Shown here piece by piece: positions 15,586 through 62,148 of a DNA stretch of 64,000 nucleotides (positions within the stretch are counted from its first letter, which is position 1; every line of letters starts with the position of its first letter). Location: assembly GCA_030068145.1 (NCBI GenBank), contig JAPJBO010000102.1, positions 1 through 64,000 on the forward strand, given 5' to 3'. The stretch is from Diplonema papillatum (taxonomy: Eukaryota; Euglenozoa; Diplonemea; Diplonemida; Diplonemidae). Both the position numbers and the translations under genes were made by a program. Under the pieces are notes generated by a model. The model saw only the letters and a list, made by a program, of their open reading frames with translations. It was not told the origin of the DNA and searched no databases.

Positions 15586-15767
15586 AAAGAAATGCGTAGT
15601 TTTGGTTTATTCTTTTGCTTTTAGTTGTCGACAACATTATTTACTTTCAGCGTCTTTTCATGCCTTTAAATGACGGTATTTTTGGTTTTCTTTCTTCACC
15701 ATGGTTTTTCTGGACTTTATGGTGCCATAGAGTTGTCGTACTCTCTCTATGCCGCCCACGTCATGTT
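15586..15767 (+). repeat. Dispersed repeat flanking the LINE, copy at 24755-24938
   Basis: About 180 bp, from AAGAAATGCGTAGTTTTGG to CGTCATGTT, is practically identical to 24755-24938. This is the left half of the repeat into which the LINE inserted. The right half, 23836-23910, continues identically at 24939-25013. Confidence 0.9.
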
Positions 15768-15824
15768 CGTTTAGCATTGAGTTCTTTTAAGTACATGAAC
15801 CACATGGATTAGCATGCACTGTGT
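15768..15824. repeat. 57 bp target-site duplication (left)
   Basis: Starts CGTTTAGCATTGAGTTC and ends AGCATGCACTGTGT. It is identical base for base to 23768-23824. The flanking bases differ on the outside (TCATGTT versus TACAGTA), which fixes its limits. Confidence 0.9.
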
Positions 15825-15836
15825 CGCCGCTTAAGG

Positions 15837-18800
15837 TTACTTTATGACGTCGTCACCTGTCATTGCGTCGTCAAGGTCGAGTACTTGTGGCGCCAGGGGC
15901 GCTGGGCTTTCTTGCGGTTCTGGAGATTGCGTGGGGGGGCACAGGTGCGGACAGGCTTGCACGTTTTTCACTCTCGAGGGCACTGGAGTGCTTGGGGACG
16001 TCGGACGTTTCTGGTAGCTGCTTGCTTTAAGGGCCTTCTTCTTTTTTCGTTGCACCCCTGACTCGGGTGTGGTCGCCTTCGCCTTCTTCCGCTTGCGGCC
16101 GGCGATCGGGCTCTCCTTCGGGGTGCCGAGCACCCTCTTCTTCAACGCTGGTCGTTCGCCGGTCCCTGGCGTTGGTGGCGGCCTCTTGGCCGCCCGTCCG
16201 GTCGTCGCCGTCTTCTGCTTCACCACGGCGGGCGGTGCCTGCGCCGCGCGCTTTCCCGCCGGTGTTTCTCGTTGTACGCCCACCTGGGTGGGTGAGAGGG
16301 GTCTCTTCTTCTTTTTGCTGTGTCCGGGGGTTGCCGGGGCGTTCGGTTCGTTGGGTTGGTGGTGGCCGCGGCGGCAGCACGCTGCCGGTCTCCTCTGCGC
16401 CAACGTAGGGAGCCTCCTGCATTCCTGGCAGGTTCCTCTGCCATGCGTGCGGCAGGCATGATGCCCGCTGCGGCAGCACGCCGCCGCCGTCTTGCACTCG
16501 CCGCATTTCGTCGTGCTGTGCTCCACGCACACCGCGATCGGCTGCCCATCGTCAGCGTGGTGATGGTGCCGACAGCACATCTCTACCGTGGGCACGTCCC
16601 TTCGGACGAGTGCTCGACACGCCTCACACTTCCCCTTGTGGTGGGTCGCGCAGGTGACGAGCGCCTTCTCTACTCCGACACCCGGCATATGCACGGGGTC
16701 GGGGTGCAGCTGTGGTGGGGCAGGCAGGGCCCACCTCGCCGCTCTCTCGGCCGTCCAGTCCGGGTACGTCGGGAACTGCGTCCCTACATCGCTTCCCTTC
16801 ACCTGCTCTTCGAGGATCGTCCCCGTGTGTGCCTCGCGAAAGCGGGGCCTGGGCCGCACCCCCGATATCCCCGTGATGCCCATGAACGACAGCGACGTCG
16901 TCGGGCATACTCTCTCGCCTCGCTCGCAACTCCCCAGCCCTTGCTGTGTCGCCAGCTTGTCCAACGCGCTGATCATGCAGCGCAGGACGTTTCCTCGCTC
17001 CCTCACCCCCTTCGGTGCATTCTCGTGCAGCGGTATGCTGAGGCCTGAAAAGAGTTCAAAGTCGATGGCAAGCTCTAGCATTGACGCCTGCCCGTTCTCG
17101 GTCCACTCCATGTCTGACAGCCACGCTACCAACGCATAAAACGTCGGTAGCCCCCAGGCCTTGTTCCGCTCCCACGCCCATGCCGGGGCAATCCGCGCAA
17201 AGGGGTGGTCGAGCTTCTCGGCAGGCATCGCATCCGCTCTCGACCAGGGGGTCGTGGGGTTCCTGGCTACCCAGCCTCGTGCTTCGAGCCCTGCCCGCTC
17301 CGCAAGGATTTCAGCCATCATCTCCTGGAGCCGCCTCGAGAAGTGGGCATTTTCGGGTACTACCACTCCGTGTTCCAGCGTGCATCTGGGCCAGTCGGCG
17401 CGGTTGGCCGCCATCAGCTCGGCATGTGCCTCTCGTCGCCGTATGTGCGAGTACGCTCCGCAGTCCCAGAATACGTGTTTCTCGTCCTCGGTGTCGCCGC
17501 TTCCACAGTGCTTGCAGCTGGGCGCCTGCGGCTCAGCTCCGGCCTGTCTCATCCGCGACGTGAACTCAGCCGTGTTCACTCCTCCCGCCAACGCTACACG
17601 TATAAGCCTCGCGGTGTGCGCGGGACATTCACGCATCCTCCAGAAGGAGTTCGTCCGCTCCAAGTCGGCTCTCTGTACACCCTCAAATCCCGGCCGCCTC
17701 GCTACCAGACGGGACCACGTCTTCGCCCTCAAATCCGCCCTCACTTCATGCCCCCTCTTCGAGGGTGTCGAGGCTATCGGGTCAAATATTGCACCATTCC
17801 TCAGCGTGCGAGACAGGGGCCCTGGTCCCCATACGTGTCCACACTCCTCCATGCTCTTCATCGCCAGTCCAACTGGCCCCAGGGGTAGGTCCTCCTCGGC
17901 GTACCTTCCCCGGATGCTCTCCATCAGAGGCAGAAGTCGTGGCAACCTCTCGCACGCCGCGTAGAACGCCGTCGTCACCCTATATGCTAGGCATGTACTG
18001 GGGTCCGTCAGGTGGCCCTTCTCCTGAAAATTTAGGACCATCTCCCTCGCGCGCTTTGGGTTGGACCCACCCCAGATCAGTCCCATCACCGACGTCGTCA
18101 GCCGTTTCATTGCCACCTTCGACACCGGCGCGAAAGAGCAGCCTGACAGCGCCGCCGGCAGCACATTCGACTGTACAATCCGGACCCGCTTCTCGTACCG
18201 GAACGGCGCATGGCGGAGGCCTTCCGCCAGGGCAGCCGCCTTCTCCACCCTCTCCGAGTCGGACCTTTCTGTCCTATTCTTCGCCGTCGAGACTAGGGCC
18301 CCCAGGCACGTGACAGATTTGCCAAACCGCAGCAGCGCATCCACGCTGCGGAGTCTGAGCGTCGACTGATGCCTACGTCTCGTCGAGAAGGCGACCGTTT
18401 TCTGGAGGTTCAGCTCCATTCCGGTGAGCGTGCAGAACTCGTCTACCACGTCCACCCCCTTTTGCAGGGCGGCCTCCGACAGCCGCGATAGCAGCGTGGC
18501 ATCGTCCGCGTACGACTTTGGGCTCACCCCCTCCGCTTCTTTCTTGACCGCCTTCATCACTACCGACAGCAGGGCATTGATGAGGATGACGGATACAGGG
18601 CACCCTTGAAGGATACCATTGGTCACACTAAACTCCCTGCCCACCCCTAGAGGCAGCTTGAAGCGTCTCGCGAGCAGTCTGTAGATCGCCCTCAGCGGCT
18701 TGAGAACCCGATTGTGCAACCCTAAGTCCCCGGCCAGGCGCAGCACTATCTCTCGCGGGACCATGTCGAAACATTTCCGGAAGTCCAGCGCCACTCCGTA

Positions 18801-21752
18801 GAGCGGCTCTCCATCTAGCAAGGCGTCCTCCATCTCGAGCCCTATCTCCATCAGGACGTCCTCGATACGGTGACCCGGTCGAAAGCCCTTCTGTCCTTCT
18901 TCGATCCACTTCTCCTGCCACAGGACTATGTCCGCAAGCCTGCGGCACGCCCATAGGCGGTACACAGCGGACGTGACGGTTATTGGCCTCGTGTGCAGCG
19001 GGTCTTGGCTCTCATCCTTCGGCACCATCGACACCAGGGCAGTTGTCATGCTCGCCGGCCAAACCCCAGTCACTTCGACCAGGTTCATGACATCCGCTAG
19101 CGCATTCAGCAGGGGAAGCGGCAACTCCCGCAGTTCAGCCATGCGCCAGCCATCCACGCCTGACGCGCTTTTCTTCGGCTTCTTCCTTAGCAGAGTCCGC
19201 AGCTCCTCCCCCGTGATCGTCCCGGGTTCCATCAAGTGTGTGTCGATGTGCTCCTGGAACCGATCCCGAAACGGTCCGTACTCCGGCTCTGGCCGGTCCT
19301 TGTATTTACGCAGGATAGCGTCCCACGCAGTGTGCAACACCTCGTCCATCTCGTCCACATTTGCAGTCATCTTCGCTCCGGTGCGCAACACACCCGACGG
19401 CTCAGCGCGACCGGCGCAGACGGTCGCTAGACATCGTCTGCTCGCGTCCGCCCTCTCGTTAAGCTTGTCTCGGTACTTCGTAAACCTGGCCGCAGATCCT
19501 TCCCTTCCGAGCCTACTCGTCTCTTCCCGCAACGCTGTGAGCAGCTGCTTCGCCTTCTCATGATCCGGAAACCCCCCTGCGCCTTGGTCGCCCACCATGC
19601 ACGCTTGTGCCAGCCGCTTGCAGTTCTGCCAGCAGAGGGACACCTCATGTGGAACAGCTTCCGGCCCGCGACGTTGCGCGAGGTAGCTGCAGATGCGTTC
19701 CATCCGGTGGATGGCCTTTCTAAGCCGTAGCTGCCTGCTGTTCGCTGCCCCCGACCCGTCGGTCGCAGTGCCCGCCGTGACACAGACCCTCCTCGGCAAT
19801 GTCTTCATCCCCCGGCCGGTACCCCTTCCTCTCTCTTCCACAGGGACGGCGAATGCATCCTGCAAGTACCGCTCACTGACCCGTGACCACTCGAGCCAGG
19901 CCTCTTCCACCCGCTGCGCCGCCAATCGTTCCGCGAATTCGGAGTTGGCCAGTCTCTGTACGGCTTCCCTGTCGGCTTCTGCTTCCGAGAGGTCCCACTT
20001 GGACCCCCCCTCTGTCGGGATCTCCCGCGGCACCTTAAATCGCCACACGCTTTGGCGCAGCGCTGCAATATCCAGGGTCACTGTCACGAGCCGGTGTCCC
20101 GGTACGTTCACCGCGGTGGTGACGCATTGACGGAATGCACACGCCGCTATGCGGTTGAGGAGTATGCGGTCGATCCTCGTGCCTGACGTCCGGGCGCTGG
20201 TAAAGGTCGGTGGCGGAGGCGTGTTCCCGGTGCGCGCATGGTGCAGTTCCGCTGCGTCGGACCATCCGTTCCTAAGTGCCTTCCGCAGAACAGGGGACCG
20301 ATCTTCTTCCGTGTTGAGGTCTCCCATCACCAGTATGGGGACGTCGCCGAGGCTGTCTGCCGCCGCAAAGAGGACCTTCTCCAGCATGTCCTCACGTTCC
20401 TCGTTCTCCGCCCTCCCGTTTCCTGATGGGCAGTAGACATTGAACACGTGCACGAAGGTGCTGCCGGTCCCTGTTGCGACTACAGTATGGCTTACCCGGT
20501 CCGGGGACCGTAACGCCACGTGCGAGAGCGCTGCCAACGTGTCGTACGCCGGTATCGGCCTCTGTACTAGAGTGCAGAGTCCCCCGTTCGCAGCGTTCGT
20601 CGTCGAGCGACTACCGGAGCTTCTACAGAGTCTCCCGGGAGGTGGCGGACCCCAGTGGCAGCACCAATTCCGTAGGTATTCCTCCGCCTGTGCCCGTTTG
20701 CATCGAAGGAGTGTGACCTCCTGGCAGCAAAGAAGGTCGGCTTCCACCGCGTTAACCGCTACTATGTACTGCAGCATGCTGGTCACGTTGAGCGTCGCGA
20801 ACTTCATCTCCGTGCGGCCGGGACCAGGGTTCTGTTCGACGTCCCCAGCTGTTAACAGCCGCTCTCGTGCAGATCCTCTGACTGATTCTTCTGTTCTTTT
20901 ACTGTTACATAAATGCGTAGGGTTGGACTGTTGATGGGGGGGATGGGTGAGTGACTGTGGGGGGGGTGGGGGGGGCATTGTGGGTGGATCCAGCGTACCT
21001 TGTTCTCCTCTGGTGGGGGAGGAGCAGCGGGCCCTTCCCTCGTGCACAGCTCTGTAGGTGAGCGAGACCCTGTCGTGTGTGACATCACCGGGACGGATCC
21101 CGTGTGTCCACAGGTTCCTGGCCTCGCCCTCCATGTGGCACAGAGTGCCGGCTGGCAGCGGGGTTCTCACTCTTTGGGTCCCCCTCTCCCACTCCATGAC
21201 CGTGTCACTCAGTAGCGAAACAGTCGCAACCCTCGGTCCAAGTTCTTGCTGGTCTTTATGGGGGTTTATCCCCACTCCCTTCCGGTACCAGTTGGCCAGC
21301 AACTGGTCCGGTTCCCACCCCAGACGGTCACGTATGACATCCGCAGCTTCTCTCAGGGGCCCCTCGGGGATCCCCCGCTCCAGTTTGACCGGGGGTCCGC
21401 CCTGTCGATAGGCGTGCCCCCACTGCTGGGTTTCCCTGCCATGCCCTCCCCCCAGCCTTCCCCAGGGGGCTTCCGGTCTGAGCTCGGGGACCCGGCTCAG
21501 CCTCTCCAGGAGGTCCCGAGGGATCGTCTGGAAGCTGAGCCCGGGAATGGGTCCATCCTCCCTGCTTCGGGGGGGCTTGCTCCCGGGTCTTTGCCCCTCG
21601 CCGTAAGTCGGCCGCGGATGTTGGTCATTGTGGGGGGTTTGTTTGTGCGCAATGTCGGGCCCTCGGGGTAAAACTCCCGGACGACTGAGGCCTGGCGCGT
21701 CGAGAGAGGGGGAGAAAGAAGAAGAAGAGGGTCTGCCGCCCCCTTCGCGCAT
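15837..21752 (-). CDS. LINE ORF2: AlkB dioxygenase / 2A / endonuclease / reverse transcriptase / Cys-His array
   Basis: Single 1971-residue frame from an ATG 93 nt after the ORF1 stop. Residues ~70-240 are an AlkB-type Fe(II)/2-oxoglutarate dioxygenase. Residues 303-311 are a 2A skipping motif. Residues ~316-575 are an exonuclease-endonuclease-phosphatase (AP-like) nuclease with CQEV and MGDLN (D478, N480). Residues ~855-1160 are a reverse transcriptase with motif A VALDFRKCFDMV (D990), motif B GILQGCPVS and YADD at 1081-1084. A CKHCG...HVFWDC zinc knuckle typical of LINE ORF2 C-termini lies near 1410-1431. Residues 1701-1797 hold three Cys/His repeats, followed by a Lys/Arg-rich, probably nuclear-targeting tail. 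The EN and RT should act by target-primed reverse transcription (family knowledge). The N-terminal dioxygenase is the unusual part. Confidence 0.95.
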   Translation of the reverse strand: MREGGGRPSSSSFSPSLDAPGLSRPGVLPRGPDIAHKQTPHNDQHPRPTYGEGQRPGSKPPRSREDGPIPGLSFQTIPRDLLERLSRVPELRPEAPWGRLGGGHGRETQQWGHAYRQGGPPVKLERGIPEGPLREAADVIRDRLGWEPDQLLANWYRKGVGINPHKDQQELGPRVATVSLLSDTVMEWERGTQRVRTPLPAGTLCHMEGEARNLWTHGIRPGDVTHDRVSLTYRAVHEGRARCSSPTRGEQGTLDPPTMPPPPPPQSLTHPPHQQSNPTHLCNSKRTEESVRGSARERLLTAGDVEQNPGPGRTEMKFATLNVTSMLQYIVAVNAVEADLLCCQEVTLLRCKRAQAEEYLRNWCCHWGPPPPGRLCRSSGSRSTTNAANGGLCTLVQRPIPAYDTLAALSHVALRSPDRVSHTVVATGTGSTFVHVFNVYCPSGNGRAENEEREDMLEKVLFAAADSLGDVPILVMGDLNTEEDRSPVLRKALRNGWSDAAELHHARTGNTPPPPTFTSARTSGTRIDRILLNRIAACAFRQCVTTAVNVPGHRLVTVTLDIAALRQSVWRFKVPREIPTEGGSKWDLSEAEADREAVQRLANSEFAERLAAQRVEEAWLEWSRVSERYLQDAFAVPVEERGRGTGRGMKTLPRRVCVTAGTATDGSGAANSRQLRLRKAIHRMERICSYLAQRRGPEAVPHEVSLCWQNCKRLAQACMVGDQGAGGFPDHEKAKQLLTALREETSRLGREGSAARFTKYRDKLNERADASRRCLATVCAGRAEPSGVLRTGAKMTANVDEMDEVLHTAWDAILRKYKDRPEPEYGPFRDRFQEHIDTHLMEPGTITGEELRTLLRKKPKKSASGVDGWRMAELRELPLPLLNALADVMNLVEVTGVWPASMTTALVSMVPKDESQDPLHTRPITVTSAVYRLWACRRLADIVLWQEKWIEEGQKGFRPGHRIEDVLMEIGLEMEDALLDGEPLYGVALDFRKCFDMVPREIVLRLAGDLGLHNRVLKPLRAIYRLLARRFKLPLGVGREFSVTNGILQGCPVSVILINALLSVVMKAVKKEAEGVSPKSYADDATLLSRLSEAALQKGVDVVDEFCTLTGMELNLQKTVAFSTRRRHQSTLRLRSVDALLRFGKSVTCLGALVSTAKNRTERSDSERVEKAAALAEGLRHAPFRYEKRVRIVQSNVLPAALSGCSFAPVSKVAMKRLTTSVMGLIWGGSNPKRAREMVLNFQEKGHLTDPSTCLAYRVTTAFYAACERLPRLLPLMESIRGRYAEEDLPLGPVGLAMKSMEECGHVWGPGPLSRTLRNGAIFDPIASTPSKRGHEVRADLRAKTWSRLVARRPGFEGVQRADLERTNSFWRMRECPAHTARLIRVALAGGVNTAEFTSRMRQAGAEPQAPSCKHCGSGDTEDEKHVFWDCGAYSHIRRREAHAELMAANRADWPRCTLEHGVVVPENAHFSRRLQEMMAEILAERAGLEARGWVARNPTTPWSRADAMPAEKLDHPFARIAPAWAWERNKAWGLPTFYALVAWLSDMEWTENGQASMLELAIDFELFSGLSIPLHENAPKGVRERGNVLRCMISALDKLATQQGLGSCERGERVCPTTSLSFMGITGISGVRPRPRFREAHTGTILEEQVKGSDVGTQFPTYPDWTAERAARWALPAPPQLHPDPVHMPGVGVEKALVTCATHHKGKCEACRALVRRDVPTVEMCCRHHHHADDGQPIAVCVEHSTTKCGECKTAAACCRSGHHACRTHGRGTCQECRRLPTLAQRRPAACCRRGHHQPNEPNAPATPGHSKKKKRPLSPTQVGVQRETPAGKRAAQAPPAVVKQKTATTGRAAKRPPPTPGTGERPALKKRVLGTPKESPIAGRKRKKAKATTPESGVQRKKKKALKASSYQKRPTSPSTPVPSRVKNVQACPHLCPPTQSPEPQESPAPLAPQVLDLDDAMTGDDVIK
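16362..16652 (-). other. Three-fold Cys/His repeat at ORF2 C-terminus
   Basis: Residues 1701-1797 contain three units of C-x2-H-x4-C-x2-C followed by C-C-x(1-3)-H-H: CATHHKGKCEAC...CCRHHHH, CVEHSTTKCGEC...CCRSGHH and CRTHGRGTCQEC...CCRRGHH. The spacing between the CxxC and the CC varies (12, 5 and 13 residues). It resembles B-box-like cross-brace zinc modules but matches none exactly. It probably binds zinc and nucleic acid or protein. A basic tail with RKRKKAK and RKKKK follows. Confidence 0.75.
20820..20846 (-). other. 2A ribosome-skipping peptide motif
   Basis: Residues 303-311 read GDVEQNPGP, an exact match to the 2A core D-(V/I)-E-x-N-P-G-P, preceded by ARERLLTA as expected for the upstream helix. 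2A peptides make the ribosome skip the Gly-Pro bond. The frame would therefore yield a 310-residue AlkB protein ending ...NPG and a 1661-residue EN-RT protein starting with P311. The motif sits precisely between a proline-rich linker and the first strand of the endonuclease (MKFATLNV). Confidence 0.92.
21033..21545 (-). other. AlkB-like Fe(II)/2OG dioxygenase domain in ORF2
   Basis: All AlkB hallmarks are present. NWY (154-156) is the family's N-x-Y. H165-x-D167 (NPHKDQ) and H217 (LWTHGI) are the iron triad. R228 and R234 in RVSLTYR match the R-x5-R that binds 2-oxoglutarate and substrate. The GTLCHMEGEARNLWTH segment matches the conserved strand before the distal His. AlkB enzymes oxidatively remove methyl or alkyl groups from bases in DNA or RNA (established for the family). 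Which base this one acts on cannot be read from the sequence. The conserved catalytic residues argue it is under selection and not a captured wreck. Confidence 0.9.
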
Positions 21753-21845
21753 TGCTGCGTGATCGAACTGCCTAGTAGCGTTGCTAGGACTCGGCAGCCC
21801 GAACGAGGGCCTCGGTCCTCCGGTGGCCCGGGGATCCTGATGCAG

Positions 21846-23567
21846 TCAGCCACTGCCAGCCTTCTCCCTGGTGCGGTAGCATTCGTGGCACACTCTGGCA
21901 CCACACGCGCACTTCCTCTGCAGCGTGTTCTTCCCCTTCCCTCCGTTGCAGCGGCTGCACTTCCAGGCCACCTTCGTCTTCTCCACGTCATCGCCCCAGT
22001 TGTGGACGTGCGCATCGACCTGCATCTCGCCTTCCGCACTTCCCGCGGCTTCGCCTTCCATCTCGCCCGCCTTCCGCTTCGCGCTCGGCGCCACGTCCTC
22101 CTGCCGAGCCGCCGGTGGGGCATCCTGTTCCCCCTGGGGTAGCCGCGCGTTGGGGATGCGGCCCTTCCAATGCTTCGTACCGCTAGGTACGTCGCCGACC
22201 CTCACCCTCCGGATGTAGAGCGGCGTCCTGTTCGCCCTCTTCACCACCTCGGCTGGCGGGTCCGTGCTGGCGTTGACCACCAGGTTGGTGCGCCTGCCTG
22301 TCACGAAGCACTTCGTGACCCGGCAGTCCCACTGCACCGCACGCAGTGCGGCGAGCATCTCCTCCTGATGCTCACCGACCTCGCTCTCCACCAGGAACCT
22401 CGCCTCGGGGGGGCCCTGGCGCTCCGGCGCTGCCAAGGAGCCGGCCCTGTCGATGAGCGTCCTGCGGGCCGCCGGGTTGCTGGCGGAGTAGCGCACCCCG
22501 TACCGCGTCCTCGCCGCTGCCACCCCGAGCGCGTCGGCGTGTCCGGCGATCTCCATCGCCTGCTCCAGCTTGGCATCCTCCGCCAGCCACACGACGGGGT
22601 GCAACTCGTTGCCATTGACGAAGGATGGCGCGGCCCAGTACACGCCCCCCTTGCCGCTGGAGCGCAGTAGAGTCGGCGCCTCGCGCGTCGTGACCCGCAC
22701 TGACACCGTGTGCCGCGTCGACGTGCAACGGTGGTTAAACCGATGCCTCCTCTCGATGGTGACCCCCGCGGCCGCCGCTGCTCTTCGACACAGCACGTCT
22801 GCTGCTCCTGCTCCCGTCGCGGCACTCTTCAGCGAGGTGCGTGTCTTCTCGTCGACGTCCTTGTACATTACTGTACACCACATGACCGTGGTCGCATCTC
22901 CCACCTCGACCTCCTTCGCGATCGGTACACGCCCGACGTCGGCTCCACCCCACTGCGTCACGTAACACGACGCCTCCGTGCCGTTGTCGAATCTGACGAT
23001 CCGCTCCCGACTCTCGTCCGTCAGCCTGCCCGGCGTCACCAGCGCGACCCTAAGGTCCTTCGCCTCCATCTCCAACAGCTCTCGGTACCCCGCACCAAGC
23101 TGCTCCCCCGTTTCCTTTCTTCCGGCGTAGACCACCCCCTGCCGGATGTCTTCCGCCTTCTCCGCCTCGACCACCTCGACATGCCAGTCGCATGGCCTCA
23201 GCCTCTTTCCGCGGCTGACTCCCGGCGCTTTCACGTATCCGCCCCTCGCCTGCGGACTTCTCGTCACCACGTTCGCCCATGTCACGCCCGGCCGCTGCGT
23301 TGCGTCCTCCCGGTCAGTCTGCACGTCGCGGGCGTCGTCGGCCCTCGTCTCCTTCGCCGCCGGTGTCGCCGCCGTCTGCTTCGCAGCCTGCTTCCGCCCT
23401 GCCTTCGCAGGCTGCGTCTGCTCTGCCTTCACGGGCTGCCCCGCCGCCTTCTCCGCAAGAACGAGCAGGATCTTGACGATCCCGTACGCGGCGCTGATGT
23501 CCGCCTCGCTCACCGCCTTCTCCGCAAGGTGCTGCGCCCTCGCGATGAAGCGTTGGAGCTCCTCCAT
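21846..23567 (-). CDS. LINE ORF1 protein with C-terminal zinc-ribbon-like cluster
   Basis: From the ATG at 23567 (MEELQRFIARAQHL) the frame gives 573 residues. The frame stays open 70 codons further upstream, but only through the 5' homopolymer and into the target duplication, so the internal ATG is preferred. The N-terminus is predicted helical, followed by an Ala/Lys/Gln-rich linker. The middle (about residues 110-470) is globular and unassigned. The C-terminus holds a cysteine cluster, WKCSRCNGG...RKCACGARVCHECY, likely to bind zinc. By analogy with LINE ORF1 proteins it should bind the element RNA and form the RNP. No sequence-level RRM or classic CCHC knuckle is evident. Confidence 0.85.
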   Translation of the reverse strand: MEELQRFIARAQHLAEKAVSEADISAAYGIVKILLVLAEKAAGQPVKAEQTQPAKAGRKQAAKQTAATPAAKETRADDARDVQTDREDATQRPGVTWANVVTRSPQARGGYVKAPGVSRGKRLRPCDWHVEVVEAEKAEDIRQGVVYAGRKETGEQLGAGYRELLEMEAKDLRVALVTPGRLTDESRERIVRFDNGTEASCYVTQWGGADVGRVPIAKEVEVGDATTVMWCTVMYKDVDEKTRTSLKSAATGAGAADVLCRRAAAAAGVTIERRHRFNHRCTSTRHTVSVRVTTREAPTLLRSSGKGGVYWAAPSFVNGNELHPVVWLAEDAKLEQAMEIAGHADALGVAAARTRYGVRYSASNPAARRTLIDRAGSLAAPERQGPPEARFLVESEVGEHQEEMLAALRAVQWDCRVTKCFVTGRRTNLVVNASTDPPAEVVKRANRTPLYIRRVRVGDVPSGTKHWKGRIPNARLPQGEQDAPPAARQEDVAPSAKRKAGEMEGEAAGSAEGEMQVDAHVHNWGDDVEKTKVAWKCSRCNGGKGKNTLQRKCACGARVCHECYRTREKAGSG

Positions 23568-23767
23568 CCCGTGGGGAGGCTGGCCTTCTGTCTTCTCTGA
23601 TTCTCTCTGTTCTCTCTCTTTTTTTTTTTTTTTTTTTTTCTTTTTACGTATCTTTCCGCGCTTTCTTGGTGTGTTGCTTTCACCGGAGGGGTCCGGTACC
23701 GTATGTTTCCTAACAAGCCCGAGGGAGCTTGCCGGCGACCACGGTAAGCCACCAATAAAGTACAGTA
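23568..23767 (-). promoter_or_regulatory. LINE 5' region with A21 homopolymer
   Basis: 200 bp between the target duplication and the ORF1 ATG. On the minus strand it contains a run of 21 A (23619-23639), preceded by AAAAAG and followed by GAGAGAGAACAGAGAG. LINEs normally carry their promoter internally, so this is the expected place for it. No TATA or known initiator is recognised. Confidence 0.4.
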
Positions 23768-23824
23768 CGTTTAGCATTGAGTTCTTTTAAGTACATGAAC
23801 CACATGGATTAGCATGCACTGTGT
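23768..23824. repeat. 57 bp target-site duplication (right)
   Basis: Identical to 15768-15824. Immediately beyond it the host repeat resumes (GTTGCACTGACGTTTAGCAG). Confidence 0.9.
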
Positions 23825-24211
23825 GTTGCACTGACGTTTAGCAGCGGTTGCCGAATCATGCCGTAGCACCGTCCTTTCGCGTTTTTTTGGCTTTTTCTGA
23901 TAGAAAATACGTGGTAACACCCTCGTAGCTCGCCGGGTGAAGCACTCCAACCGAGGTTGAGTTATTGTTATGCCTATTCTAGAGCCTTCCCGCATTCGTC
24001 GTCTTTCTGGCGACGCTACGGGAGAGCTCGTTTCGCTATTTCCGTCGAGGCAATATTATCCGTTCGAGCTGCTTTGAAGCCGAATCACATTCGCATGCAT
24101 CTACATCCGCTATGACTCCGCTTTCCCAAGGACAGTTTTGCAGACTCGAGTTTTTCTTTTTCCCTCTCTGATTTTCTTTTCCTTGTTCACTTGCCTTTCC
24201 AGTTTGCCGGC
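23825..24211. repeat. Right half of the LINE target repeat, then unassigned sequence
   Basis: 23836-23910 is identical to 24939-25013. A CCCTCGTAGCTCGCCGGG block at about 23921-23938 is shared with 31570-31587, so the host repeat has a further, more diverged copy there. No gene. Confidence 0.7.
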
Positions 24212-24495
24212 TCATTGGCTAACATAAATGTTTGCACAAATTAAAGTATGTCCCGGCTGTCGGTTAGACTCGTGGTTTCTTTTCCTTTTTCCCTGTCGCT
24301 CGCCTTTCACCTTCACCGGTCCATTGGCTAACATAAATGTTTGCGCAAATAAAGTAAGTCCCGGCTTTCGGTTGTAGACGCTGATTGTTTGTTTTTTTCC
24401 CACTTTTTTGTTTTCCTTTCCCGGTTGCCGGTCCGTTGGCTAACATAAATGTTTGCGCAAAATTAAGTAAGTCCCGGCTGCCGGTTGTAGACACA
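24212..24495 (+). repeat. Three ~115 bp tandem repeats
   Basis: The block TTGGCTAACATAAATGTTTG, then CGCAAATTAAAGTAAGTCCC and GGCTGCCGGTTGTAGAC occurs at about 24212, 24328 and 24437, separated by T/C-rich spacers containing TTTTCC words. No coding capacity. Confidence 0.8.
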
Positions 24496-24754: not shown

Positions 24755-25013
24755 AAAGAAATGCGTAGTTTTGGTTTATTCTTTTGCTTTTAGTTGTCGA
24801 CAACATTATTTACTTTCAGCGTCTTTTCATGCCTTTAAATGACGGTATTTTTGGTTTTCTTTCTTCACCATGGTTTTTCTGGACTTTATGGTGCCATAGA
24901 GTTGTCGTACTCTCTCTATGCCGCCCACGTCATGTTCGTTTAGCAGCGGTTGCCGAATCATGCCGTAGCACCGTCCTTTCGCGTTTTTTTGGCTTTTTCT
25001 GATAGAAAATACA
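24755..25013 (+). repeat. Paralogous uninterrupted copy of the LINE insertion-site repeat
   Basis: 24755-24938 equals 15586-15767 and 24939-25013 equals 23836-23910, joined at a single CGTTTAGCA. It lacks both the LINE and the ~66 bp segment from which the target duplication was made. It is therefore an unoccupied relative of the insertion site, 0.9 kb from the element. Confidence 0.85.
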
Positions 25014-32738: not shown

Positions 32739-35700
32739 TCACCGCTTGTTTTTGACGTCTGCCTTTCGAGCAGGCTTAAGGAAGATCTGGTTCAGAACGG
32801 TGTCGATGAACTGCTGCACCTTGTTGGCTAGTGGTTCGAATGGGGACGGGTTAAGGAAAGTCGCCAAGCACGCGACACATTCCTCGAACTCGCTGAAGAC
32901 CAGCGTGTCGCTGTCGTCTTCAGGGTTGTCCGTCTGCATCGCTGCAAACAGCTCTGTCAACTCGTCAGCACTCACGCGGCGCGGCATCAGGCCTGTGGAC
33001 GTCGTGTGTGAAAGATTACGAGCGCAGTGAAGACGGGGAGTACATCTTTGTTTCATGCCTGCACGGTTGATGCAAGCATCAAGTTCGTAGAAGATGTTGA
33101 GGCTTTGGCTGAACGCTTACGCCCGCCACTAAACCCAGATTTACCTGTGAGGGCTACAGCAGAATAATCTTCTTTGGGATTTTCGCAACTGCAGCCTCAA
33201 GCATTTACACTGTTTCTCACACAGCTAAAACAAGAAATACTCGAGGGACGCTGTTGTTGTTGAATAATTGACATTAACCTCTAACATCTAAATGAGAGTA
33301 CAACGATGCCGCTGAAAAGAGGAAAAAGGCAAGCAACAGCCGGGCGAAGGCACACCTGCGTCCTTCAGCATTTGGCACAGGTCGGTAAACGCCAGCGTGT
33401 GCGGGCAATGCCCTGCTATGGTGATGTTGCTCCTCTCGGTCGCGTAAGCCCTGAACAGGCGTAGCAGCTTCGGCCGCTGCTTCTTGACGACTGCCTGGAC
33501 TGGCTCCGACCAGCACTGCACCTTGAAATCAAGCCCGTGCACCGCCATCCCTGCCTTAGGGATCAGGTACTCCTCGAAAAGCACTCCGATTGCGAATTCA
33601 TGGGTTACTTTGGCTTGCCCCTGGGCTGACGAAAACACCGGTGTGCCGAACCGTAGCACGGCGATCCGCAAAAGGAGCTGCACGAACTCAACGGGGACCA
33701 GCAAGTGGTCCGGGTTAAACGCTTCGGTGGAACTGTTCCTGTTTTTAGCGTTTATTTTTTAGGTAACACATGCGGTTGTTGTTCATTCATTCATTTCATC
33801 AATTCGAGCAAAGCGCAAGGAGGATGCACAGACCACCCGAGCCTACAACAGGCCAAGCAACAAGTACATGTATTTTATTCGCTAATGAACAAGTTGTCAG
33901 GCCTCAGTCTGACTTCTCTCTTTCCTTCCTCTTCCGATGATGGATAATTACTTCGGATGACAAAGCATGACCGAGTGCGATGAGGCCAGAAGCCAGCTGC
34001 CATTTCCGGTGATGGGAGGGGGTGAGGAAGCGCAGGTGCTCAAGCAAAAGAAACGGAGCAAAGGACGACAGCGGGCTGCGCGTTGTACAACGAAGAAGCA
34101 TACATGGTGTTGGCGGTGTTGTTGCTGTTGTTGTTGTTGTTGCCGTTGTTGTTGTTGTTGTTGTTCGCCGAGGCCGGCTCAGCTCTGCACCGCAGGTTGA
34201 CGTCTGCGAACAGCGCCGCAGCGTGGCCCTTTTTGAAGGCGTGGTCGACCAGCTGGCACTCGACGCAGAACCGCCAGAACTGGGCGAAGTCGACGGTCGG
34301 CACGACGGGCCGCTTGCCGGAGGCGGCGTCCCCCCCCCACGCTTCTGTCTGCGGCGCGTTGGCGTAGTGGCAGAATATGCGCTTCACGTGCGCGAAGTAC
34401 CCGGCGAGCACTCCAAGCAGCTCCCGCAGTTCTTCCGCGTCGCGCCGCTCCTGCTCCTTCGCCACCCTCGACACGCCGCCCGAAACGAACAGCTCCGGCA
34501 GCTGGTCGGGGCGGAGACCCTCGAAGTACACTTTGTACTCGCGGACGGACTCTTGCTCCTCCTGCTTCGAGTACAGCTTCACCGGCCGGCCCTGCGCCCG
34601 GCACGCTGCGAGGTGCATCGCGTAGCCGTCCACCTGCAGCACCGTCGACTGCCACCGACTCAACTCAACCTCTGCCTCGTTGAGAAGGGACACGCTCGCT
34701 TTCACCTTCTCCGGAGCGTCTTCCCGGGCCAGCACGCCGGGGATGCTGCGGGATGGGGGTGTTGGGGTGGGGAAGGGGGAAAGGGAAGGGGAGGGGGGGT
34801 CGGCTGGGGTGGCGTCCGGGGCGGGGTCCTCGTCGTGGTGCCAAAGTGCCGCGAGTACCGCGACGATGACGTCCGGGTGCCCTTGGGTCCAGCTGTCCGG
34901 CTGGCACGAGACGTCGAGCCCGAGCAGCTTCAGGTCTGTGACCGCGGATTGCACCGTTTCCGCCGCGGTGCCCGCCGCCCTGCCGCCGCCGGCGGCGGGC
35001 CGCTCCTTCCCTGTCACGGCCGCCACCAACGCGGCGAGGGCCTCGCCGGTCCTCCAGTCCGACGTAAAATTGGTGACGACAGCGACGCCTCCCGCCTGCT
35101 TCGGGCGGTCGTCGCCACCCTGCCCCACCTGCTTCCTACCCGCACCGCCGCGCACTGCTGCAGCACCCCCGCTCGTCGTACTCCCCGGTGCAGTTGCGTG
35201 CTGCTGCTGCTGCTGCTGCAGGAGCAGCTTTTGGTTCACCCAACGGAGGAGGGTGGCGTGCGTGGTCTCGTACCAGGCGTGCAGGTGCGAGGCGTTGCCC
35301 GCCCGCACCGCCGCCGGGGTTTGCCCTGCGGGGGCTGGGGGAGTGGAGGACCGGGTGGGTTCTTCGGGGGTGGTGAGGGACGCGAGGTAGAGGATGACGT
35401 GTTGCGAGATGAGCTTCCAGTCTTGGATGGCGCGGTGCCACGTGTGGCAGAAGGCGGAGAGGGTGGCGCTGGTGCCGCTCTCGTCCTCGGCCACTTCCTT
35501 CGCCGTGAGCCACTCGGAGACCATGGATTTGGTCTTGCGCAGGTGCCCGGTTTTTACCTCGACGAGCTTCGCTTTCTGGTCTTCCAAGCTCTTCTGGTGC
35601 TCCAGCAGCTGCCCAGCCACGCGGTGCAGGTTCTGCCGGACGGTGACCTGCAGCCAGGCCCAGAGCACCTTCTGCAGAGTCTTCAGCCGGCGGGCTGAGA

Positions 35701-36016
35701 CTATCAAATCGCGGACGCCGCGGCTGTTCGCCTTTCTTCTCGCCGACGAGACCCTCCACGCCACCAGCAGCCGCCCGGCGATGCAGCGCTGCCACGCCGT
35801 CACCGCGTTGCTCAGCACCTTCGGCCGGCACGCCAGCGCGTTGTGCAGGCAGTCGATCTGCCGCTCGAACGACGCCCACCGCTGGCTGCTCTCCTTGAAG
35901 CAAACCGCCCACGGCGTCCGGACAGCGAACTGAGACACCATGAACGTGCCTTCCGCGTCGGGGCGTGCCGACTGGAACAGACGTCCTTCCAAGTACGAAC
36001 CAGATGCGTCGCTGCC
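32739..36016 (-). CDS. Calponin-homology domain protein, three 3' exons
   Basis: Exons 36016-34191, 33732-33356 and 32992-32739 join in phase (donors G|GTGCAG and G|GTGTGC, acceptors ACAG|T and ACAG|G) into one frame ending at TGA 32739. The first exon has Trp-spaced helical segments (AWQRCIAGRLLVAW, KVLWAWLQVTV) resembling SFI1-type repeats. A calponin-homology domain follows: LLRWVNQKLL, VTNFTSDWRTGEALAALV, LLGLDVSCQPDSW and HPDVIVAVLAALW. The CH domain carries polyQ and Gly-rich insertions. The rest is an all-helical C-terminal region (FWRFCVECQL, FADVNLR, VEFVQLLLRIAVLRF, FEEYLIPKA, LVFSEFEECVACLA) like that of large protist CH proteins. It probably binds actin or microtubules at centriole/axoneme structures (inference). 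An ATG at 36043 could instead start the protein. Confidence 0.8.
33105..33260 (+). repeat. Dispersed repeat B inside intron 2 of the CH gene
   Basis: TTACGCCCGCCACTAAACCC, AGATTTACCTGTG, GCAACTGCAGCCTCAAGCAT matches 63483-63585 and, more diverged, 53510-53670. It lies wholly inside the 33355-32993 intron. Confidence 0.75.
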
Positions 36017-36062
36017 CTGTGCGACAATGGGTGGAACTGAACTCATTTCCGGATCGCACGAG

Positions 36063-36190
36063 TCTAAATACACATTCCTCTAATACACATTCCTCTAAAT
36101 ACACATTCTTCTAAATACACATTCCTCTAAATACACTCCTCTAAATACACGTTCCTCTAAATACACATTCCTCTAAATACACATACTTTC
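36063..36190 (-). repeat. ~16-17 bp minisatellite
   Basis: About eight copies of CTCTAAATACACATTC (GAATGTGTATTTAGAG on the coding strand), one with a deletion. It is in the proposed intron before the 36016 exon, or in the 5' UTR if translation starts at 36043. Confidence 0.9.
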
Positions 36191-45858: not shown

Positions 45859-46833
45859 TCAGGAGACCGCTTGAGTGCGAGGCACACGGTCCTTCATCTC
45901 AACGTCGCCCGCCGCCCGGGGCGCTGCTCGTGTCCTGCAGGCAGCCTCCCTGTGTGCTTGCAAACCGACGACCCAGTTGAAAATCGGCTTGCCCAGTCCC
46001 ACGATGATCGAACCCGAGACCACAATCGCCGCATACGTGTCGGCTTTCCTGCCGTCCACGTCTAGCAGGAGGATGGCGAGGGACTCGAAAAAGGTGGTGA
46101 GGGACCTCAGAAAGTCGGCGGACACATGCAGGAGAGCGGAGCAGAGGTTCATGTGCGCAGTGTGCGCGGTGTTGAGCATAGCTTCGGTGTTTTGATCGGC
46201 GGGCTTGTTTCTATAAAGGAAGTATGGGACCAAACACACAACGTCAAAGGCTATGCCGGCAATCGCGAAGGCCAGTACAATGTAAGGGTTGACATCGTCG
46301 TCGTCTTCTGCGGTTTCCCAAGGCTTGTCGATCGCATCCTGCGCAGCTTCGCACAAGAAGTACAACGTGATACCGAGCAGGGAAAAGAGGGAAATGCCAC
46401 TTGCTATGAGTTGATTTCTGGCGCGGGTCGACGAGTTGCGGTCTTTCCGACACTCGACGGTGAGGTTCATGCCGTACGTGATGGTGTCGACGCCCATGGT
46501 GACGCAGTCGCTGAGCAGGGCCAGGGAGTTGGCCAGCAGAGCCCCCGTCGCTTGGGCGACCGTGATCGTGGCAAACAGCACCAGCGACAGGAAGAACGTC
46601 CGCGCGTGCTGCGACCAGACGCACCCGCAGACCTCGGCGGTTCCCTCGCACAGCCGCTCCGCATCGTCGACGATCACCTGCGCCCGGCTCGACAGCAGCA
46701 TCTCCACTTCTTCTTCTTCTTCTTCTTCTTGTTCCCCATCCTCTTCTCCGTCCACCTCCTCGTTGATCAGCATCGAAGCTTCTTTTACGGTGCAGTCAAG
46801 CATCCTACACTCCGGATCGGCTTCGTCGGGCAT
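45859..46833 (-). CDS. CDF-family (ZnT-like) metal transporter
   Basis: ATG at 46833 (MPDEADPECRML), 324 residues, no intron needed. The cytosolic N-terminus is acidic with an EEEEEEEVE run. Six hydrophobic spans follow: TFFLSLVLFATITVAQATGA, NSLALLSDCVTMGVDTITYG, LIASGISLFSLLGITLYFLC, VLAFAIAGIAFDVVCLVPYF, LCSALLHVSADFLRSLTTFF and TYAAIVVSGSIIVGLGKPIF. Order and motifs are those of cation diffusion facilitators, which export Zn2+ or related ions from cytosol by proton antiport. Span 5 has the classic HVSAD (H-x3-D) metal site. Span 2 reads SDCVTMGVD, so the usual His is Thr, implying altered metal preference or a non-transporting paralogue. The cytosolic C-terminal domain is very short. Decayed copies of its 3' end follow. 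Confidence 0.85.
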   Translation of the reverse strand: MPDEADPECRMLDCTVKEASMLINEEVDGEEDGEQEEEEEEEVEMLLSSRAQVIVDDAERLCEGTAEVCGCVWSQHARTFFLSLVLFATITVAQATGALLANSLALLSDCVTMGVDTITYGMNLTVECRKDRNSSTRARNQLIASGISLFSLLGITLYFLCEAAQDAIDKPWETAEDDDDVNPYIVLAFAIAGIAFDVVCLVPYFLYRNKPADQNTEAMLNTAHTAHMNLCSALLHVSADFLRSLTTFFESLAILLLDVDGRKADTYAAIVVSGSIIVGLGKPIFNWVVGLQAHREAACRTRAAPRAAGDVEMKDRVPRTQAVS

Positions 46834-47061
46834 TTTCGTCTTTTTTTGGGCGTTTTTCTTTGTTGACTGGGTTTTTGGTGGGAGGTCAAAGAACTTGGCG
46901 ATCGCCTGTACTGCAAGGGTCGGTAGTGCATGACGCCTGTATCGGTCGCCTTGCCTCTCGCAGAGCAGAAGTACGACTGTGCGACAAGTCTCGGCTGAAA
47001 CGTTCCATCTTGGCTCGGTTGCGAGTGCAGGTTGCATGGTCCTTGTCCCATGGAGACACCC

Positions 47062-47165
47062 TCCGAGGAACCTTGAGGATAGCCGCATCGTGACTTTCGC
47101 CGTGTCCAGGTATCGACCAAGATGAGGATAGCCGCATCGTGACGTCGCCGTGTCCAGGTATCGAC
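47062..47165 (+). repeat. ~47 bp tandem duplication
   Basis: GAGGATAGCCGCATCGTGAC followed by GCCGTGTCCAGGTATCGAC occurs at 47077-47119 and 47124-47165. Confidence 0.85.
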
Positions 47166-48813: not shown

Positions 48814-53234
<4,421 letters not shown>

Positions 53235-59035: not shown

Positions 59036-60354
59036 AGCCAGGAAAGCGAAAGCAGAAAGCAGCAGCCAAAAGCAGCAGCAGAGACCAGCAGCAGCAGCAC
59101 TGCGCGTGCTTTTAGCGTGTTTTCTGTTCGGGACCCCAGTTTTTTTCCACAAGCCCATAGGGACCGGGCCGTAATGCCGCAGAAGTAGTACGTACGTACA
59201 GGCGTAGTGCAGGGAATGCTGCGGGTGTACTGTGTTGCAGTGGCTCGACCATCCGCGCGCACCGACCGTATATCCAACCAGATAACCAGTTTCCGGCGCC
59301 AGGGCAGAAGTCAAAGCCTGTGCCCAGGGGGGCCGAAACCGGCTTCGGAAGAAAAGCAGAAAAAAAGTGAGATTCGCGCCAGCCCCCCTCGGAATCGGCA
59401 GGCGGGCGTCCCGCAGAGCCTGCTGAGGATGAACGAGAACCCAACCTCATTCCGGAGCATTTGCTCTTGTTGCTTGTTTCTTCTATCGTACTTTTCAAGG
59501 GGCATCTACATTTTTTTCAGTCTGAGAAGGAGATAGGAATAATCATCCGGAGTCGGGATTCGCACAGGATCTGCTTTGCATAAAGTGCAGAACGATGGTT
59601 TGGATGGTTTCTTCTTCGGTACCAAACCCGCTGGGCGCGTTACCTTCATCTGACAAGCCGGTGCTTTTCAGATCGACAGGGCAAGGTCATCTGCAGATAG
59701 AAGGGTCTGAGAGCGAATAACAACAAGGGGAGAAGGCATTCTCCTGTAAAAATTCATTTATCCTTTTCCTGTGGTGCAACCCGTTGCTCCGGAAACTGTT
59801 CCTGCCAGTTTGACTGAACTGTGTGAAAGAAAGGAAAAGGGTCTGAGATGGGGTGAGAACTGACGACCGTATGTAATAAACGTGAATTGTGTCGTTCTGC
59901 GCTTCGCATTAGAAAGAAGGAGCAGCGGCAACAACAAACGAATGATCGTTGTCATTATTTTGTTTCACGTTGCGGCATTTGAGCGAAAAATGAAGATAGA
60001 CCCGAGCAGCAATCAGATCCCGTATGCTTCGCCCTGTGGTGTGGTTAGTAGCGCACACTGTCTAGCAAAGTGCAGCTTCATTCCAATATTTCAAAGATGC
60101 AAATAGCAGACAACCAGTTAGTTGGGTTGAAACGCTAAGTTCGCTCCTGGTTGATTCTGGGGATAATTGTCGATCGGATCCTATGACACACGTGTTTAGC
60201 CTGATTCTTCGATCAAGAAATATATAACTGGTTGCGTCTGTGGCCTCTAAGAAGAATGAGGATAGTTGCATTTAGTAGCGCTTGCGGCCTCTAAAAATAT
60301 GCGAAGAGAGGCCGCAGACAGCGAAAGAATGGAACAAAAGACGCGGCGGCCTAC
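59036..60354. other. No exon recognised
   Basis: Lies downstream of the PUF exon donor and should contain its last intron and 3' exon(s). None recognised. An AGCAGCAG-rich stretch is at 59060-59100. Confidence 0.4.
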
Positions 60355-62148
60355 CTGGTACAGGGCGCTCATCTCATCGGGTTCGTCGTCGATCATCGTG
60401 GCCCAGTCGTTGCAGAGGTCCGACACGTCGGCGGCGGGGTGCCGCAGGACGGGCGCCCGCGATGCATGCTGCTGCTGCTGCTGCTGCTGCTGGGGCACGG
60501 CCGGGGGCAGCTGCTGGAAGACCGAGGCGTCGCCGAAGGAGCCGTAGTTCGGGTTGTGCGACCACTCGCTGGCGACCGACGCGGGGGTAGCGGGCGTGAC
60601 GGGGGTCAGCGGCGACAGCGGCGGCTGGTGGGAGGACGCTGACGGGAACACAGTTCCGGGGCCCGACGAGCTGGGCTGGGTCAACGGCACGAGGCACGGC
60701 CCGGGCAGGTACTGCGACTGCGGGAGGGCAGACGCGTTGCTCCCGCGGACCGGCAGCGGGGCTTCGCCCTTCTCGTACCGCTGGAGGACGGCGACCACCG
60801 ACCTGCCGTACATGTGCGTTTTCAGCCAAGCCGCCTCCTTCGATAGCGCGGCGTACATCAGCTGCTGCTGGCTGCGGTCGCTCTGCTCAAAGATGCGCTG
60901 GACCACGAAGTTGCCAAACGGGTCGGTCGCCAGGTTCACGCAGTGGGGCAGCAGCTCCTGCAGCAGCACCGCCCGCAGCGACGGCGTCGCCGAAACGTAG
61001 GCGGTTTCGACCACGTTGCTCGCGTGCTTGTGCCTGCACAGGATCCCGTAGCTGCCTCGCAGCAGGTAGATCGGCTTCAGCCCTCGCTCGTGACCACAAC
61101 GCATGATCGCTTGCACGACGTAGTTGCCGAACTGGTCGTTGACCTGGGTACGAGGTATGTGGTGATAGACCGAAGAATCCAGCTTCAGGAAATTCTATGC
61201 AACTCTAGGGGATAGGAGTGGACCTCATTGACCGTGGTGGACCGTGATTCGTCTTCAAGAGTCGCTAAAAGCGGCTGTTTCTTTCACTGTGTAAGTACCA
61301 GACACCCGTGCATCAAGAAAGTGTCTATATCCCAAAGCGTCACGATTAGAGCGCTTGTGAGGACTTGAAGACGAAGACATATTCACGGAAGGACATGCGT
61401 CGAGTACACGGTCTCACAGGGGATGGTCCGGCACACTACCACCAGAATTCCTCCGGCTTCGTTCCTATCTACTTCACCATCTATCGGGTCCCAACAAGTG
61501 TACTTTGCCTCAAAATCCCTATCCGGTACATCAGGATCGGTCTGTGCTGCGTCCTCAAAGATTGGCATATCTCCCTTGCAGTGCGGTTTGGCTTTGACAC
61601 CCTCCCGAAGCCACGCTCACGTGTTAGACTCCTTGGTCCGTGTTTCCGGTGTTTTTACCCGGCCTTGAGAGACAGGGTGTCAAATTAACCCTGCCTGGTG
61701 CACACTCATGCCACCGGGTCTTCCATGTGCAAATGGTCAGATGAGGGGGTCGTTTTTAGAGTTAAAGTTACTCCGGGATGTTAGGGTTTCCTGACCTTCG
61801 TTAAATGGGCTCTCGTAGAGCAAGAAAGGGTCAGGGTGTGGGTTGCTTCTTTGGAGTACACTTTCATTACTTTTGCGGACAAAGAGGGCATACCAACTTC
61901 TGCAGGCTGAACGACAGCTCTTCGACGACGTCGTAGATCAGCCTATCGTCTGCTGCAGCGGCCGCAACCAGGCGCTGGATAACTCTGCAGCCGTACTTTT
62001 GGCAGGACGTGCCGGCCAGGTTGTTCTGCAGCTCGAGCACGATCAGCTGCGCAGCTTGCGGCACGACCTCGAGGCTCCGCTGCAGGACGTGGTTCCCGTG
62101 CTGGTCGGTCGCCAGCTGCTGCACCCGCGACTGCAAGCGGCGGGTGAT
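60355..62148 (-). CDS. Pumilio/PUF RNA-binding protein, repeats 4-8
   Basis: Exons 62148-61894 and 61143-60355 join in phase 0 (TTG|GTATGC ... CCCAG|GTC). The repeats read DQHGNHVLQRSLE (R4), QKYGCRVIQRLVA (R5), DQFGNYVVQAIMRCG (R6), HKHASNVVETAYV (R7) and DPFGNFVVQRIFE (R8), then HMYGRSVVAVLQRYE as the C-terminal cap. The base-contacting residues are canonical, including S-N-x-x-E in repeat 7. PUF proteins bind 3' UTR motifs and repress or localise mRNAs. A long Ser/Pro-rich tail with eight Gln (PQQQQQQQQH) follows the repeats, and the exon ends ALYQ|GTAGGC. Repeats 1-3 and the start are not seen between here and the window edge, and the last exon is also not found. Confidence 0.85.

Follow-up and report, generated by a model that had tools for sequence, protein, structure and literature searches.

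Can a retrotransposon bring its own nucleic acid repair or editing enzyme to the template that it copies? The question is raised by positions 1 to 64,000 of contig JAPJBO010000102.1 of Diplonema papillatum (the window, that is, the whole 64-kb stretch analysed), which contains on its minus strand, at approximately 15773-23765 (about 8.0 kb), an intact long interspersed nuclear element (LINE) of the APE type. As the original prediction had claimed, the front of its second open reading frame (ORF2) encodes a complete AlkB-type 2-oxoglutarate (2OG)-Fe(II) dioxygenase; ORF2 (15837-21752) is uninterrupted over 1971 residues, and all the catalytic motifs are present. We suggest, with a probability of about 0.45, that a diplonemid nuclear LINE captured an ALKBH8-like AlkB domain, delivers it with the ORF1 protein (ORF1p) and uses it to clear alkyl-type blocks from template RNA or complementary DNA (cDNA). 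We infer both the catalytic activity of the domain and its benefit to the element. If the suggestion is correct, this LINE would supply its own repair or editing enzyme through ORF1p, and one could test directly, in a free-living eukaryote, whether retrotransposition is limited by damaged or marked bases; gene replacement is reported to work in Diplonema (PMC10161547).

The module (residues 71-236, 21045-21542) is placed in the AlkB superfamily by its match to the Pfam family 2OG-FeII_Oxy_2 (PF13532, 5.7e-13, residues 134-234, above the curated cut-off) together with the HxD...H iron triad and the RX5R motif; N154/Y156, H165/D167, H217 and R228/R234 are all at positions typical of AlkB enzymes. 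It is followed in ORF2 by a 2A (StopGo) motif, GDVEQNPGP (residues 303-311, 20820-20846), with a predicted break between G310 and P311, by an endonuclease (Exo_endo_phos, PF03372, 1.3e-10; residues 326-537, 20142-20777) and by a reverse transcriptase (RT; RVT_1, PF00078, 2e-19; residues 919-1123, 18384-18998) with YADD at 18501-18512. The predicted AlkB and RT domains are thus both recovered by Pfam models, in the order AlkB, endonuclease, RT, and the APE-like endonuclease and LINE-type RT within one ORF mark the element as an APE-type LINE. The best solved relative of the RT part is human L1 ORF2p (1.1e-16, obtained with an endonuclease-RT query whose match falls in the RT). Two Cys/His-rich regions 3' of the RT (16359-17516, comprising 17460-17516 and 16359-16652) were read as motifs from the sequence and have no Pfam match. 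ORF1 (21846-23567, 573 residues plus stop) has a Cys/His-rich stretch at its end (21879-21959) and likewise gave no Pfam match; it likely starts at the methionine at 23567, the first ATG past the spliced-leader remnant described below. The mechanical frame to 23777 starts outside the element. Two D. papillatum proteins are relatives of ORF2: P0004, at 99% identity over 99% of the query stretch, and P0005, at 100% identity over 91% of it.

ORF1 and ORF2 share a reading frame, interrupted between them by one UGA (21846-21848), the proposed readthrough site, and by no other stop. A query in which X joins the end of ORF1 to the start of ORF2 gave 343 candidates in the genome (271,365,524 bases in 2910 contigs); of the best 150, 123 rows span X, and 120 of these have exactly one stop, a TGA, stops being counted per match without their position. 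The exceptions are C485 and C1412, with extra stops, and C1288, with none in the match although the TGA context is present in the locus that was fetched. A single frame with one conserved stop is the arrangement of a readthrough element, and in many rows the frame through the stop runs for approximately 2600-2800 codons, which corresponds to ORF1 plus ORF2. We also fetched six loci from other groups of the family (L079-L084, a sample of six from at least 150 AlkB places). All six lack a methionine in the 69-71 codons ahead of AlkB, which are the upstream extent read, and in none of them is the ATG of the window's ORF2 conserved. Given the shared frame, the single TGA and the missing methionine, readthrough of the UGA is the simplest route to AlkB, and the domain is probably made in this way as an ORF1p-AlkB fusion.

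Several observations weigh against readthrough as the general route. Sequence that shows the exact place of the UGA comes solely from loci of the window's subfamily, and the retention of the UGA may in part reflect shared descent; in one group (C7 and C35), the alignment began at query position 68 and did not cover the ORF1 end. In the window's subfamily, moreover, an ATG follows the UGA after 31 in-frame codons (21753-21845), so that reinitiation is possible there. AlkB would then be a separate protein, started past the ORF1 stop and untethered from ORF1p, and SART1 is described as using termination-reinitiation, a mode also proposed for human L1 (PMC5972666). The absence of a methionine before AlkB in all six other-group loci argues against such a start, as does the frame, which is in phase with ORF1 across subfamilies, and we regard reinitiation as unlikely, if the best placed of the alternatives that we considered.

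The 2A motif provides the second recoding signal. In the window and in all six other-group loci, D(V/I)ExNPGP stands in frame between two protein parts, with AlkB in frame ahead of it and its motif residues kept. By StopGo, the motif would part ORF1p-AlkB from the endonuclease/RT. The original prediction did not name a 2A motif, yet the 1-310 product that it proposed ends exactly there. A fusion protein of AlkB and endonuclease was rejected, as the 2A motif argues against it. If both signals operate, an in-frame UGA and a 2A would act in series within one LINE. We note that two related LINE proteins, P0016 and P0020, have two 2A-like motifs in series and that in P0016, as annotated, an ORF1-like part precedes both.

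The identity of the nearest AlkB enzymes bears on what the module might do. In a single-sequence search of solved structures, the best of 19 matches were ALKBH8 (6.7e-7), a fission-yeast AlkB-like protein (1.1e-5) and ALKBH6 (1.1e-3). A profile search gave 46 solved-structure rows with ALKBH8 first (1.3e-38), followed by a protein deposited as '6mA demethylase' (5e-22), the fission-yeast protein (6e-20), ALKBH6 (4e-18) and ALKBH5 (3.1e-14), and, at lower ranks, ALKBH7 (4e-10), ALKBH2 (1e-9), AlkB (1e-8) and ALKBH3 (1e-7); FTO was not among the 46 rows. Six of the 14 sequences in the profile come from outside the genome, and these may pull the ranking; the closeness to ALKBH8 is a judgement on solved structures by search scores. 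An RNA recognition motif (RRM) and a methyltransferase domain are parts of animal ALKBH8, and neither has a Pfam match in ORF1 or ORF2. The LINE module shares N.Y, HxD...H, RX5R and an R..Q..G ahead of the core with ALKBH8 proteins (human, 3thp; protozoan, bacterial and mimivirus), but it is encoded by a retroelement, is not accompanied by an RRM or methyltransferase match and is bordered by approximately 70 variable residues on each side.

ALKBH8 enzymes of mammals and plants are described as tRNA hydroxylases, and all the bacterial, protozoan and mimivirus ALKBH8s tested in the same report repaired DNA in vitro (PMC4051686). There, two of four ALKBH8s acted on m3C (3-methylcytosine), m1A (1-methyladenine) was unrepaired save for a very weak activity of one enzyme, and two protozoan ALKBH8s also modified the wobble uridine of tRNA. 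In view of these in vitro activities, template RNA or cDNA could plausibly be dealkylated; erasure of m6A (N6-methyladenine) is less plausible. The designation 'demethylase' in the original prediction finds no support as worded; the nearest characterised relatives are ALKBH8 enzymes and not the m6A eraser ALKBH5, which leaves that activity unproven. The anti-silencing or template-repair role that accompanied it is putative, and of the two we favour template repair.

In the mechanism that we envisage, a trans-spliced element mRNA would yield mostly ORF1p, and a minority of ribosomes would pass the UGA to make ORF1p-AlkB. At the 2A site, the fusion would be released and the same ribosomes would continue to a free endonuclease/RT. 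ORF1p, assumed to bind RNA as other LINE ORF1 proteins do, would carry AlkB onto the element ribonucleoprotein, where AlkB could strip template RNA or nascent cDNA of alkyl-type blocks, allowing a long template to be copied to its end; by analogy with ALKBH8 of protozoa and bacteria, these blocks would be m3C- or etheno-like. A more far-reaching version would treat the dioxygenase as a swappable module, tethered to ORF1p by the UGA and detached from the replicase by StopGo, such that one spliced-leader mRNA gives three product classes (ORF1p, ORF1p-AlkB and endonuclease/RT); the module would have spread between two types of retroelement within a single nucleus by virtue of removing chemical blocks from template RNA or cDNA. 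We put this version forward only tentatively.

Two other functions deserve consideration, both of them less probable than reinitiation. As ALKBH8 does in mammals and plants, the domain could act on the wobble uridines of tRNA and so aid the decoding of the element's own codons or the readthrough of its UGA. The closest solved family and the wobble-uridine activity of the two protozoan enzymes would agree with such tuning of translation, as would the in-frame UGA ahead of AlkB, but ORF2 has no Pfam RRM or methyltransferase, and the position beside ORF1p suggests that the target is the RNA of the element itself. Equally improbable in our estimate is host evasion by erasure of m6A or m1A on element RNA, or of 6mA on DNA, although an AlkB encoded by an orchid Ty3/Gypsy element is reported to demethylate RNA m6A in vitro (PMC9289625) and the '6mA demethylase' is second in the profile search. 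The m6A/m1A erasure of the original prediction finds no support in the form given there: ALKBH5 falls far below ALKBH8, ALKBH5 is reported to suppress L1 in human cells (PMC7873242), and the tested ALKBH8s showed next to no repair of m1A.

Whatever its function, the AlkB module is selectively kept by purifying selection in many copies. A query of residues 62-311 gave 401 candidates; the best 150 were scored, all of them match, and 149 have no internal stop. In 50 of these rows the identity is 89-100%, and in the other 100 it is 75-77%. Within the window's subfamily, 31 of the best 40 scored places (310 candidates), the window among them, have AlkB DNA that is 100% identical along all 973 nt; this subfamily was therefore active very recently. 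We compared the ratio of nonsynonymous to synonymous change (ω, Nei-Gojobori) over AlkB (166 codons), the N-terminal flank (60 residues, 45-53 codons aligned) and the linker to 2A (71-72 codons). Between the window and L080, L082 and L084, ω is 0.15, 0.15 and 0.19 for AlkB, 0.60, 0.73 and 0.78 for the N-terminal flank and 0.65, 0.44 and 0.65 for the linker. The neutral decay that the original prediction had named as evidence against a function is therefore not seen (0.15-0.19 compared to 0.44-0.78 for the flanks, three pairs). Fisher tests of AlkB against both flanks, made on rounded counts for two pairs, gave p 1.2e-4 (L080) and 1.3e-4 (L082).

Other comparisons are less favourable to our suggestion. 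AlkB is looser than the RT core (203 codons), for which ω is 0.01, 0.07 and 0.02 in the matching window pairs (p 4.5e-5 in one pair and 0.097 in another). Between L080 and L082, ω is 0.26 for AlkB, 0.87 for the N-terminal part and 0.36 for the linker, and between L082 and L084 the values are 0.33, 0.85 and 0.36, so that the contrast is weaker in these pairs. The window-L079 pair gives an AlkB ω of 0.57 on eight differences, and L080 and L084 differ in AlkB by four nonsynonymous and no synonymous changes. The synonymous divergence (dS) between the window and L080, L082 and L084 is 0.39-0.40 for AlkB and 0.36-0.39 for RT; this agreement indicates that AlkB was present before these subfamilies split from that of the window and is about as old there as the split of the RT. 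That AlkB is a mere passenger, a host fragment carried without benefit, is very improbable and was already disfavoured: sister families do without it and it is less constrained than RT, but the constraint is concentrated in the domain with looser flanks, 149 of the 150 places are stop-free, and a second type of element has it too.

The sister families count against a general need for the domain, since they have 2A, endonuclease and RT and do without AlkB. The AlkB core is absent, and 2A motifs are present, in protein records P0008, P0009, P0016, P0017, P0019, P0020 and P0021, of which P0019 and P0021 are transcript-assembly sequences. None of 28 places of the P0008 and P0010 types adjoins an AlkB match (checked by hand among the best 150 matches listed for each). 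In the P0008 type, approximately 149 codons are open upstream of the methionine (a frame of 1861 codons, 1712 of them from Met to end; two records were overlapped), which is too few for AlkB and its linker. As 2A-bearing relatives lack AlkB, we take 2A before the endonuclease as the wider trait and AlkB as probably the later gain; repeated loss in the sister families might give the same distribution. The test that the original prediction set, copies of the family that lack the domain, thus has a divided outcome: all six fetched loci of other groups carry AlkB, but distant sister families and some copies of the family itself are without a complete one. Among the latter, some endonuclease copies have shorter frames (1708 codons in C73, for example) and no AlkB row among the matches listed, as expected of 5'-truncated LINE copies.

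The second carrier of the domain is an element with a giant ORF. It accounts for 23 rows that are 81-100% identical to the AlkB of its protein P0001, in frames of up to 4088 codons (best 150 of 330), and its AlkB has 71% protein identity to that of the window, with a dS of 0.54 and an ω of 0.25. As we read it, P0001, named a tRNA methyltransferase in NCBI, appears to contain the beginning of an RT; it also matches OTU weakly, at 5e-4, short of the curated cut-off. A C-terminal domain derived from P0003 is found on the same strand as AlkB and in a frame of equal length in C6 and C364 (4088 codons each), C1171 (4080) and C703 (3953); against solved structures it gave only three histone matches, with E-values of 0.15 or worse. 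P0003 had suggested a tyrosine-recombinase retroelement as the second carrier. This was rejected: a spliced leader lies upstream of the AlkB frame in four of ten second-element loci (L071, L073, L074 and L077), which makes a chimeric gene model the more likely source of the recombinase in P0003. All seven second-element loci on contigs longer than 60 kb (C6, C142, C364, C703, C845, C1171 and C65; L069-L074 and L076) are 4-13 kb from a contig end with the 3' side endward, the other three of the ten contigs being short. This placement could reflect either telomere-directed insertion or assembly breaks at repeats.

It seems that subfamilies have swapped the AlkB module, or its core, on more than one occasion. 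The DNA of L080 and L082 is 96-98% identical through the AlkB core and mostly 73-88% identical on both sides, and dS between the two is 0.16 for AlkB compared to 0.37 for RT. In the giant element, C233, C2353 and C2428 have AlkB domains that are 99% identical and C-termini that are 57% identical. Chimeric assembly might explain single loci of this kind. More mobile AlkB carriers possibly exist: equal-scoring AlkB-like sequences occur as a set of three (C1931:11113, C948:27724 and C32:530185) and as a set of two (C65:452911 and C166:25885). The best rows of the AlkB search, C341:75425, C169:39260, C129:63492, C541:13121 and C89:162913, are probable host AlkB genes.

We consider the element a fresh variant of a known theme, that of retroelements with captured enzyme domains. 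The closest parallel is the Ty3/Gypsy element of the orchid Phalaenopsis with an ALKBH5-like ORF (PMC9289625), likewise a retroelement-borne AlkB-type 2OG dioxygenase with intact catalytic residues. That element is of the long terminal repeat type, resides in a plant and is described as encoding its enzyme, of the ALKBH5 lineage, in a separate ORF, whereas in Diplonema an ALKBH8-like domain is placed between a UGA and a 2A in a LINE and is found in two element types. In titles and abstract openings of the open-licence literature, the orchid element is the only retroelement-encoded AlkB that we found, an absence that is weak evidence. StopGo sequences in frame with the enzymes are reported for other APE-type non-LTR elements, L1Tc of Trypanosoma cruzi among them (Heras 2006, cited in PMC5972666; Odon 2013, cited in PMC12846837); AlkB is not mentioned in these citations, and the Diplonema 2A is distinguished by its predicted role in freeing the endonuclease/RT from an AlkB-containing product. 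The TRAS and Jockey LINEs of insects, with a superfamily 1 (SF1) helicase, further show that a LINE ORF can acquire an enzyme domain active on RNA (PMC6338049); enzyme, host and position are different, and the main text of that paper does not mention AlkB, dioxygenase or demethylase.

The published D. papillatum genome is reported to contain approximately 2500 retroelement gene models and a dozen AlkB-type genes, the latter viewed as host regulators, with no connection drawn between the two in the accessible text (PMC10161547). Diplonemid AlkB gene counts such as this dozen may include retroelement copies. When the AlkB part was compared with long database proteins (1714 word-sharing candidates), the three matches were all from D. 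papillatum; one of them, P0002, is a gene model whose end is an AlkB fragment resembling that of the LINE family.

The ends of the element indicate how it is copied. Its 5' end is a 13-nt sequence, CTGTACTTTATTG (23753-23765), which equals the terminal part of euglenozoan spliced leaders; a table of such leader ends is given in PMC3795323, in which Diplonema is not among the names seen. The window contains the 13-mer once, where 0.04 sites would be expected if up to one mismatch were allowed, and the genome contains it 944 times, compared to two for the reversed control; followed directly by the element's initial 14 nt, it occurs 56 times (control, none). Considering the first 100 leader places, it lies upstream on the same strand in 17 of 30 LINE AlkB places on C1-C107, a count that excludes two second-element places (C6 and C65), and the distance to AlkB is 2.18-2.54 kb in 16 of the 17 and 1.06 kb in one. 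In the copy on C2, the distance is 2196 nt, identical to that in the window. A nearly full leader stands at the start of L001, L006 and L008, each of which runs on into an AlkB place. From these remnants at the 5' ends, we conclude that the templates of leader-bearing copies were trans-spliced mRNA. The 37-nt leader itself occurs 517 times in the genome, a number that must include true leader genes. At the nine leader junctions inspected, exactly 13 nt remain in the window, L002 and L004, approximately 14 in L003, and a nearly complete leader in L001, L005, L006, L007 and L008. Reverse transcription may have a preferred stop inside the leader; as the search word was the 13-mer, shorter remnants are unsampled.

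At the other end, the element closes with a family 3' tail (15773-15824) that ends in CTCAATGCT. The genome contains 1831 sites of a 34-nt core of this tail (control, none), far above the 401 AlkB candidates, and the tail lies 5.3-6.2 kb downstream of AlkB in six of nine AlkB places on C1-C20. The copies are thus dispersed and have a common 3' end, and many lack part of the 5' end, as in a LINE. A 60-bp direct repeat flanking the element looked like a long target-site duplication, a reading that was rejected because the core is so numerous and the tail follows AlkB in other copies; the repeat is the family tail. The sequence that abuts the element upstream, outside it (23773-23824), is read as an older tail-only copy. 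In L001, L004 and L008, too, a tail stands ahead of the leader, with 4, 2 and 1 mismatches, respectively, in 52 nt; the two are approximately 20 nt apart in L008. Once the tail repeat is discounted, a possible target duplication of approximately 5-8 bp (AAACG/GCTAAACG) is left at the window element. Both the window element and L008 are inserted at GCTAAAC(G/A), a hint of site preference. A paralogous insertion site without the element (CGCTGCTAAACG/AACATGACGTGGG) is present approximately 1 kb away, at 24755-25012, the corresponding flanks being 23835-23910 and 15586-15776. Adjacent LINE tails share a strand in 74 of 80 pairs among the first 100 tail places, and do so in blocks, as if insertions followed the direction of polycistronic gene clusters.

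Elsewhere in the window, a 109-bp tandem repeat of 2.7 copies lies upstream of the element (24193-24492), and scans for tRNA and Rfam families gave no match. Host-like genes are found at 45859-47088 (cation efflux family, 2.9e-13), at 60247-61116 (Pumilio repeat, 5.6e-14) and at 34040-36073 (a weak calponin-homology match, 2.2e-4, below the cut-off). The element and the two Pfam-supported ORFs (45859-47088 and 60247-61116) are all on the minus strand, as are the weaker-supported ORFs at 34040-36073 and 51371-52348.

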